A stretch of 64,000 nt of DNA, taken from contig NZ_SPNT01000012.1 in the NCBI RefSeq assembly GCF_004959855.1, positions 1-64,000 of the forward strand. Reading direction: 5' to 3'. This document shows, in pieces, positions 7,645 to 57,319 of the stretch. The DNA is from Nitratireductor sp. XY-223 (GTDB lineage Bacteria; Pseudomonadota; Alphaproteobacteria; Rhizobiales; Rhizobiaceae). The first letter of the stretch is position 1; each line of letters opens with the position of its first letter. The notes beneath the pieces are model-generated. The model did no database searches. It saw only the letters and a program-made list of their open reading frames with translations, and was not told the DNA's origin. Position numbers and translations under genes: made by a program.

Positions 7645-7948
7645 CTAGAGCGAGTTGTGATCAGATTGAATCATTTGACCGAGGCGATTTTGGTCGCTGG
7701 CTAGGCGGATTGCGCGCGGTGGTGTACCCCCACCACAAGCGCAAGCCAACGACGCCAGGGGGCAAAATCGTCCGGCCCATTCAATGTTGGTTTTCAACAT
7801 CTTCTTCCTTTCCAGGGTGGGGAAAATCGGCCCATCGGCGTCGTTGCGCCGCTTGCACGATGCCCCACATCGCGCTGCGCGACGCGCCTAGCCGACTGAA
7901 CCGATTTTCCACCATCAAATGCTTCAATCTGATCACAACTCGCTCTAG
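7645..7948. repeat. 304-bp imperfect-palindrome repeat, copy 1
   Basis: The element is bounded by perfect 26-bp inverted arms (7645-7670 and 7923-7948; outer bases CTAGAGCGAGTTG). After one mismatch come 7 more paired bases (CATTTGA/TCAAATG), then weaker inverted similarity including CAACGACGCC on both sides, so the whole unit can fold on itself. A second copy lies inverted at 56003-56304 with an interior about 90% identical by eye. No transposase or conserved reading frame is present: the apparent reading frames of the two copies are out of register with each other. It fills the gap between the creatininase and cobW-like genes. Confidence 0.9.
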
Positions 7949-12528: not shown

Positions 12529-12930
12529 TCCGGATCGCTCCGGATGACAAAGGGCATGCGAACACTTGCCTTGGACCCGATTGGTGGAAACACCGGTCCC
12601 GCAACGAAATGCTCGATGCGACAATGGAGCCGCGAACCTTGAAGGCGCGCGACCGTCTGCTTTGTCTGCCTTGGATTGGTTGGGAGACCCAGCCGCACTT
12701 CCGGCAATGAAGGTGTGCCTCTGCAGTAACCCCGGCCTTTGGACAGCCGGCAGACACCATAAAGGCCCGCACCGTCGTTGCTTCAAGATGTCCTCGATTT
12801 GACGGTTGGCCGGCAAACCGACTGGAGGGGTTAGTTCCAGGTACCTTACCGAGTTCCTCACCTTTTCGAGGGTCGGCGGACACCCACAGGCACGTGCGAC
12901 TTTGGGCAGCTGCGGACATAAGGCGTCACG
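12529..12930 (-). ncRNA. Long structured 5' leader of ornithine decarboxylase (candidate speF RNA)
   Basis: The 478-bp gap between the decarboxylase and the divergent amidase carries no credible gene but several hairpins on the minus strand. One, TCCGGA-GCGA-TCCGGA (12544-12529), ends 16 nt before the start codon and could occlude the ribosome site. Another pairs GGTTTGCC-side bases with GGCCAACC near 12800-12820. Alphaproteobacterial ornithine decarboxylase genes are known to carry the speF leader motif, linked to polyamine control. Assignment rests on gene context and leader length; a covariance-model search would decide it. Apparent reading frames here are spurious. Exact ends are approximate. 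Confidence 0.5.
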
Positions 12931-55873: not shown

Positions 55874-56002
55874 CGGGAGGCCTCCACGAAACGCGTAATC
55901 GGGAATAGATGCGGCTTTGCGCCGGTCGCCAGATGTATTGACCATCGGCGACGACAACGCAAGCAGCGACGTCGAGAATCTGCGGTGAACGGATTGTCCG
56001 CC

Positions 56003-56304
56003 AGAGCAAGATGAGGTCAGGTTTGGACATTTGATGGCGGAAAATCTGTCCACTCGGCGAGGCGCGTCGCGCAGCGCGATGTGGGGCATCGGGCAAGCGG
56101 CGCAACGACGCCGATGGGCCGATTTTCCCCACCCTTGAAAGGGAGGTGGATATTGAAAACCAACAGTGAACGGGCCGGGCGAATTTTGGCCCCTGGCGTC
56201 GTTGGCTTGCGCTTGTGGTGGGGTGGCACCACGGCGCGCAACCCGCCTAGCCAGCGACCAAAATCGCCACGGTCAAATGACCAAACCTGACCTCATCTTG
56301 CTCT
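56003..56304. repeat. 302-bp imperfect-palindrome repeat, copy 2
   Basis: Perfect 24-bp inverted arms (56003-56026 and 56281-56304; outer bases AGAGCAAGATGAGG) enclose an interior about 90% identical to copy 1 in inverted orientation. Its arms match copy 1 arms at only 16 of 24 positions. After one mismatch the same CATTTGA/TCAAATG pairing continues. Its right end touches the LacI gene and supplies part of that stop codon. The 428-bp gap to 55874 holds nothing else recognisable apart from the gabD-like upstream region. Confidence 0.9.
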
Positions 56305-57319
56305 AATGCGGAGCGGTGCCGGTCGACTGCCGGACGACCAGCTCGGTCCGCATTTCGATGGTCTCGGGCGCCGTGCGCCGCGCTCCTATGATGTCGAGAA
56401 GCATGGTCATCGCGGTGCGGCCGATCTCCACGCGCGGCTGGCTGATGGTGGTCAACGGCGGGCTGTAGCTTTCGCTGATGAAAAGATCGTCGAAGCCGAC
56501 GACGGACACGTCCTCGGGCACCCGCAACCCGCGCCGCCGCAATTCGCCGATCGCCCCGAACGCCATTTCATCGTTGGCAACGAACAGGGCCGTCGGCGGG
56601 CTGTCGGCGTCGAAAAGCCCGGCGCAGCACTCTCGTCCGCTCCGGATCGAGTAGTCGCCCACCGGCTCGTAATTGTCCGGTATGGCGAGGCCGGCCTCGG
56701 CCATCGCCTTGCGGTAGCCGTCGAGCCGCAGCCGGCTGAGGATTTCCGGCAGCGGGCCGCAGATATGGGCGATGCGACGATGACCGAGCGCCGCCAGATG
56801 GCGCACCGCCTGCTTGGCCGCCGTGCAATTGTCGATCCGCACATGCGCGAGCCGGCAGTTTTCCACCGCCTCCAGCGCAACGACGATCGGCGCGATGCCG
56901 GCTTCGGTATCGAGGACCGCGTGGCTGTCCGGAAGCGTGCCGGTCATCAGGATCATGCCGTCCGCGCGGCCGTCGCGCAGCATGTCGAAATACTCGGCCT
57001 CGCGCTCGGGATCGTCTTCCGTGTTGCCCATCAAAAGCACATAGCCGGCCGCGCGCGCCACGGCTTCGACACCCCTGAATATTTCCAGATAGAAGGGGTT
57101 GCGCATGTTGCGCACGACGAGCAGCACCGCCATCGACTTCTGGATGCGCAGATTGCGCGCCCGCACGTTGAGCCGGTAGTTGAGCTTGCTTGCCGCCTCG
57201 CGGACCTTCTCGCGCGTCGCATCGGTCACCAGCGACGAATCGCTCAGCGCCCGCGACACGGTCGCCGTCGATACGCCGGCAACGCGCGCAATGTCCTTGA
57301 TCCTGGTCCGTTCGCTCAT
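56303..57319 (-). CDS. LacI-family transcriptional regulator
   Basis: This 338-residue repressor has the DNA-binding N-terminus TRIKDIARVAGVSTATVSRALSDSSLVTDATREKVREAASKLNYRLN and a sugar-binding-type effector domain (AVLLVVRNMRNPFYLEIF onward, ending MRTELVVRQSTG). The ATG at 57319 begins the family sequence. The TAG stop is formed with the terminal AG of repeat copy 2, suggesting that the repeat arrived at the gene end. A LacI-type operator lies 81-94 bp upstream, implying autoregulation. It may control the downstream gabD-like gene. Confidence 0.9.
   Translation of the reverse strand: MSERTRIKDIARVAGVSTATVSRALSDSSLVTDATREKVREAASKLNYRLNVRARNLRIQKSMAVLLVVRNMRNPFYLEIFRGVEAVARAAGYVLLMGNTEDDPEREAEYFDMLRDGRADGMILMTGTLPDSHAVLDTEAGIAPIVVALEAVENCRLAHVRIDNCTAAKQAVRHLAALGHRRIAHICGPLPEILSRLRLDGYRKAMAEAGLAIPDNYEPVGDYSIRSGRECCAGLFDADSPPTALFVANDEMAFGAIGELRRRGLRVPEDVSVVGFDDLFISESYSPPLTTISQPRVEIGRTAMTMLLDIIGARRTAPETIEMRTELVVRQSTGTAPH

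Follow-up and report, generated by a model that had tools for sequence, protein, structure and literature searches.

A dispersed repeat of the Rhizobiales with MITE-like features and end arms that change together

The window analysed here, a 64,000-nucleotide stretch of Nitratireductor sp. XY-223, holds two copies of a dispersed repeat whose end arms differ between the copies and match each other within each copy. This pattern, first noticed in a sequence-only reading of the window, is real, strong and wider than first described, and the repeat family spans many genera of the order. Across the family we found signatures of mobility, matched arms of several types, weak linkage within the interior and a nearly fixed arm length. 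The explanation that we prefer, with a probability of about one half, is that the repeat is a non-autonomous, MITE-like element of the IS5 type, approximately 300 bp long, whose ends serve as its terminal inverted repeats and also form the stem that closes a folded strand. In part, the match of the arms is that of the terminal repeats of subfamilies; what is unusual is that the two ends change in concert at the level of single pairs within a type and that ends and interior are independent of each other.

The two copies in the window

Copy 1 runs from TA tip to TA tip at 7646-7947 on the plus strand; the span originally given for it, 7645-7948, does contain the element but includes one base too many on each side, the tips lying at 7646 and 7947. 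Its left arm (7646-7671, plus strand) is 26 nt long and consists of the TA tip, GAGC and a variable paired part. There follow the CATTTGACC junction with the left hairpin branch (7672-7778, plus strand), a poorly conserved middle linker (7779-7812, no strand assigned), the right hairpin branch with the CATCAAATG junction (7813-7921, plus strand) and the right arm (7922-7947, plus strand), which is complementary to the left arm at 25 of 26 positions. Copy 2 lies on the minus strand at 56002-56305 and so reads from right to left on the plus strand. Its right arm (56002-56027, minus strand) has CA instead of TA at the tip, and the TAG at the tip of its left arm (56280-56305, minus strand) is the stop codon of the ORF at 57454-56303.

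The interiors of the two copies were judged by eye to be about 90% identical, and the alignment agrees: 228 of 250 ungapped columns are identical, with 2 further columns gapped. The left arms differ at positions 7, 10, 13, 15, 20, 23, 24 and 25 of 26 and the right arms at the same eight positions as well as at positions 1 and 26. When arm is compared with arm inside a copy, copy 1 is mismatched at position 26 alone and copy 2 at positions 1 and 26. It is therefore correct that the arms agree at 16 of 24 shared positions and that all 8 differences are compensated at the opposite end. The mismatch at position 26, described as kept, is present in both window copies, but in the family as a whole it is common and not universal (48 of 63 copies are unpaired there).

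Facing arms change together

Further copies, in the window genome and its relatives, were sought by interior motifs on both strands, with no requirement that the arms pair. Duplicates, one spurious pair (L013) and pairs with an inner length of 114 were removed from the 137 detections, leaving 82 unique copies, of which 63 (inner length 240-262, no N) were aligned. Facing arms agree at 17.76 of 19 positions within a copy, compared with 10.38 for the left arms of different copies; when the right arms were permuted among the 82 copies the mean was 10.55 and the maximum of 2000 permutations 11.66. The result was similar inside single genomes, with a within-copy identity of 17.92 against a permuted maximum of 16.46 for the 13 copies of the window genome (G000), and of 18.14 against 15.31 for the 29 copies of a second genome (G007). 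Covariation of the arms is thus general and is not a coincidence of two copies. Pure independent decay of arms that were once equal is excluded as a source of the match by a within-copy identity above all 2000 permutations.

Most of the variable arm positions occur with several types of Watson-Crick pair. In the 63-copy alignment, 23 of the 32 pairs in the helix formed by the arm plus CATTTGA have changed on both sides, as have 14 of the 75 pairs in stems outside the arms. For the whole fold, 405 cells changed on both sides versus 113.7 in shuffles, which ignore relatedness, and 40-65 in slid controls, which keep relatedness but are biased in favour of a structure built from these sequences. 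Arm columns 7-25 contain 320 double Watson-Crick cells together with 12 G.T, 32 A.C and 26 other mismatched cells; G-T intermediates, reported earlier as absent, are therefore few in the arms but do exist. Some copies, such as L162 and L212, carry several arm mismatches, and the near-identical copies L008 and L010 share two besides that at position 26, which indicates that duplication tolerates mismatched arms.

Arm types alone would match the two ends of a copy, and permutation was also carried out within one arm type and one genome, using clusters of at least 3 copies (10 clusters, 58 copies). Counting cells and not events, we observed 33 matched double deviations against a permuted mean of 12.2 and a maximum of 24 (5000 permutations), and 56 mismatches against a permuted mean of 101 and a minimum of 75. 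Change is thus concerted at the level of the single pair, although hidden subtypes could contribute to this excess. Taken together, the data suggest that it is the match between the ends, besides their letters, that is being read or copied.

Insertion sites and subfamilies

The arms had been described as the opposite of transposon ends, and it is here that the sequence-only reading does not hold up. The locus corresponding to copy 1 is empty in genome G007, where the site reads CTAG, and the site of a G007 copy (L058) is unoccupied in genome G005, where one TA is aligned with CA. At the tip, 26 nt from the inner motif, T is found in 143 and the following A in 151 of 164 ends, and the preceding base is C in 89 and T in 65 (154 of the 164); a few distant members have the tip offset by a base. 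The element apparently inserts at YTAR with duplication of TA, the TA being deduced from the two empty sites and the tip statistics. The idea that a conserved core was inserted into pre-existing palindromes is disfavoured for the window family: no arm is present at the empty site of copy 1, and the 5 matches of one arm type in the window genome are made up of two element pairs and one truncated end.

A subfamily in genome G358, with arms TACCAAGTCTCGATGATAGG, gave 18 pattern matches: 14 are exact and form 7 pairs, and 4 are single and imperfect. In all 7 pairs the 20-nt arms are identical and are flanked by direct TNA repeats (TTA, TTA, TAA, TAA, TCA, TGA and TCA). Elements of the IS1031 group duplicate TNA. 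The interiors of the 7 pairs contain two, two, one, one, partial, no and no branches, and we read the two bare 57-bp hairpins as deletion forms. A member of this subfamily on a plasmid of Agrobacterium sp. MA01 has TCA on both sides and one position of the 20-nt arm changed on both sides. Versions of 213 bp without the right branch were also seen (L169, L171 and L014); their junctions are similar in two species and look like the result of losing the hairpin by deletion.

One cluster of 17 copies in G007 has arms that are alike, as do the 7 pairs in G358. Given the duplications, the empty sites and the likeness of arms within subfamilies, the ends look like transposon ends, but of several types, and of the features by which a MITE is recognised, terminal inverted repeats, target-site duplication and empty sites are present. 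Copies with conserved arms had been named in advance as evidence against the pattern. Such copies exist within subfamilies, whereas between subfamilies both arms change together. A second arm type, in G000 and G007, is represented by five bare arms (L251, L253, L254, L255 and L259) and one truncated end (L249), all of which we read as relics, and by one further single match (G007, C4:80619).

Independent assortment of arms and interior

The tree of the interiors is not reflected in the arm types. Two copies in G005 have one interior difference in 237 columns, while their arms have 6 double and 2 single differences in 22 positions and the divergence starts at both arm/CATTTGA junctions. Among 28 copies of G007 (L166 was left out of the linkage test), mean r2 in the interior is 0.10 within 30 bp and 0.04-0.07 farther apart, and 946 of 1225 interior site pairs violate the four-gamete test; by comparison, facing arm sites approximately 280 bp apart have an r2 of 0.84 (11 pairs, 2 of them in violation). 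The corresponding figures for 12 copies of the window genome are 0.05-0.16 in the interior and 0.90 for facing arm sites (8 pairs). Different sites of one arm in G007 have an r2 of 0.25 and left-right pairs in general one of 0.33, values that several arm types would produce; linkage of facing sites is therefore not by itself proof of change at the level of pairs. Since the interiors recombine, permutation and linkage were used instead of a null simulated on a tree. Low interior linkage may be due in part to homoplasy. The simplest reading would be ectopic gene conversion of the interior that is stopped at arms of another type; if conversion cannot enter such arms, interiors would become alike and arms would not, but the matching of the arms would be left unexplained.

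A possible transposase partner

The proposed link to the IS5 family consists of the duplication type, the GAGC-like ends of an IS in the window genome, one weak sequence match and the duplication length of the IS427 group. Duplications in the IS5/IS427 elements of Paracoccus are described as mostly 2-bp (PMC3281130). The sequence match involves a distant member, L291, whose arm occurs over 24 of 24 nt in one Sinorhizobium plasmid, in a stretch with no transposase, and over 33-34 nt at 91% in another, with an IS5-family transposase annotated immediately upstream. This match is weak (E 0.07); the left end of the IS differs at 5 of 21 positions, L291 has 5 arm mismatches of its own, and we infer the full extent of the plasmid IS. 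The window genome itself contains an IS (L298, G000:C8) with ends near positions 1440 and 2374 of the locus and TCA on both sides. Its ends, GAGCCGGATTYAAAAGT (GAGCCGGATT..), are GAGC-like, and it matches PF01609, with a match to PF13340 in the adjoining stretch.

The search for a partner took in four Pfam families, in 2 or 8 genomes, and three patterns of ends, each in one or two genomes. Inverted-repeat scans that allowed 3-4 mismatches revealed no matching ends at 7 loci of PF13358 (IS630-type), 20 loci of PF13340 (IS5-type) or 11 loci, from two genomes, of PF01609 (IS5-type). No match was obtained between 63 elements and 54 transposase loci, and the 36 occurrences of one arm type in G007 (at most 1 mismatch) include no pair about 1 kb apart. 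Y1 transposases (PF01797) have matches in 6 of 8 genus genomes and none in the window genome or G003, and no element is near the Y1/RAYT genes in the loci examined.

The repeat is like IS5-family (IS427-type) MITEs in being small, in its terminal inverted repeats, TA/TNA duplications and GAGC-like tips, and in its many dispersed copies. It is unlike IS5-type MITEs in that (i) the arms are long and nearly perfect; (ii) several matched arm types occur per genome; (iii) there is a large conserved two-branch fold; (iv) the interior is common to the arm types and (v) no cognate IS was found among the loci inspected.

How might matched ends arise and persist?

Under our preferred explanation, the element would insert at YTAR and duplicate TA, and its sister subfamily would duplicate TNA, through an IS5-family-type transposase acting in trans. 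The ends would do double duty, as terminal inverted repeats of the mobile unit and as a closing stem above two large hairpin branches. If only copies with matching ends continue to move, changes in the arms would survive mostly in pairs. A double change could arise either by two mutations under selection or by hairpin-templated copying of one arm onto the other. Ectopic gene conversion would homogenise the interior and be unable to reach heterologous arms, with the consequence that arms and interior would assort independently.

The repeats could instead be ordinary MITE subfamilies, in which each arm type is the terminal repeat of another transposase, pairing is irrelevant and interiors are common through recombination. 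Arms alike within types, target duplications, IS5-type signatures and the independent assortment of arm and interior are all consistent with this. It predicts that arms change in blocks, however, and the single-position double changes exceed the within-type permutation (unrecognised subtypes could inflate them); stems outside the arms covary too (14 of 75 pairs), and a limited search yielded no cognate IS. We consider subfamilies of this kind rather unlikely as the whole explanation, if the least unlikely of the alternatives.

The usual view is that the transposase keeps the ends of a transposon constant. In this family a single genome has several end types on a common interior, with paired end changes above permutation. 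It is conceivable, although we doubt it, that the repeats belong to an order-wide mobile class whose machinery recognises ends by their pairing and fixed length and not by their sequence. If so, one enzyme could move copies with unrelated self-complementary ends, and the ends would drift as base pairs. The family offers a natural data set for asking whether the ends of mobile elements can be read by pairing and how fast hairpins template the rewriting of inverted repeats in bacteria.

It is also possible to account for the double changes, and for the scarcity of intermediates, by arm-to-arm copying, in which a hairpin forms on a single strand, the polymerase switches template and one arm is copied over the other, with selection playing no part. 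Template switching has been proposed as a route to compensatory changes, one that would produce perfect stems, and keep them so, in a single step (PMC8794818). Deletion derivatives that have lost a branch fit this idea, as does L079, in which both ends are of the R type: apart from the tip base, its outer 47 positions are mirror images, as fold-back copying could leave, though the inner part of the mirror is the branch's own stem. Maintenance by template switching is, unlike the repeat, a mutational process and not an element, and it should erase an adjacent mismatch, which is mostly kept here: the mismatch at position 26, adjoining the arm, is still there in 48 of 63 copies. Two further mismatches are common to L008 and L010, the branches have mismatches and bulges that reappear from copy to copy, and most ends keep a spacing of 26 nt between tip and inner motif, which free copying does not need. 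On balance, we regard copying without selection as unlikely.

Fold and strand

Consensus folding of both strands predicts an arm stem with two hairpin branches, and the nine distant members that we inspected are likewise predicted to have the arms paired as a closing stem, with large hairpins inside it. For the minus-type strand of L006 and for L357, the minimum-energy fold pairs both halves into one long hairpin. Counted on a one-strand predicted structure, the ratio of G.T to A.C cells is 52:12 for the left branch, 21:37 for the right and 12:32 for the arms. These opposite ratios indicate that no single strand is favoured throughout, and to that extent they lend weak support to the earlier suggestion of a DNA-level process. 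When arm mismatches were counted once per genome, position and pair, there was no significant strand bias (31 A.C versus 18 G.T, p 0.085).

Like REPINs (REP doublets), the repeat is a dispersed non-autonomous hairpin. REPINs are not known to produce target duplications and carry their variable paired part in the spacer; here that part is at the ends, target duplications are found, the predicted stem bears two branches instead of one hairpin, and the window genome has no Y1 match. Compensatory changes on both sides of REPIN hairpins have been called common (PMC3116915). As has been proposed for REPINs, the folded single strand could be the mobile or replicating form, with an enzyme that reads pairing and stem length. 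The arm length is nearly fixed while the sequence turns over, and the nine distant members keep the predicted closing stem and large hairpins, as this would require. We nevertheless find it improbable, as a DDE transposase accounts better than insertion of single-stranded DNA for the TNA duplications seen in 7 of 7 copies, and neither the window genome nor G003 has a match to Y1 transposases.

A structured RNA gene or attenuator spread by transposition, with the stem selected as RNA, is very improbable: strong folding is predicted on both strands and many copies are at ORF 3' ends, but the G.T versus A.C preference indicates opposite strands in the two branches, and in the window no Rfam match at gathering score overlaps the element. 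The only Rfam matches in the window are adjacent ones to the alphaproteobacterial ar45 sRNA and the speF leader, at 12598-12907 (minus strand).

Distribution and gene context

In the window genome (6.19 Mb, 59 contigs) the element has 28 BLAST matches, a figure that includes arm-to-arm matches, and element matches occur in 7 of 7 relatives within the genus. In a sample of the order it was detected in at least 37 of 397 genomes and at least 28 of 142 genera, its own genome being counted and 2 candidates per genome scored; copies are also present in MAG records named Anderseniella and Tepidamorphus. A 3305-bp stretch of G007 is 100% identical to a record of Hoeflea poritis E7-10, so the window genome is probably related to that species. 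Several element matches in G004 lie at contig ends, and thus assemblies may break in the repeat and copy numbers may be underestimates. In the distant set, an arm pair was recognised at 43 of 56 loci, 38 of them distinct, and the 35 with at most 4 mismatches were compared. Facing arms agree at 17.0 of 18 positions within a copy versus 7.3 between copies; the set was chosen by arm pairing (at most 6 mismatches in 26), which biases the within-copy value upwards, and single entries may be chance.

A literature search, which covered titles and abstract openings and few subscription journals, found no description of this repeat. By description, it is like RIME, Sm and AB/C of rhizobia and Bru-RS of Brucella (names from PMC2573895 and PMC2267715), which are repeated, partly palindromic and intergenic.

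Gene context was evaluated with mechanically called ORFs and a GC3-weighted choice among them. Among the genus copies, 30 of 126 usable flanks have a GC3-best ORF that stops at the TAG of the element tip, copy 2 in the window being an example, which suggests insertion into stop codons; 79 of the 126 point a 3' end toward the element. A different short palindromic repeat is found in L228 (2249-2351) and L221, and its tips in L228 are TAGAGC and TAGACC.
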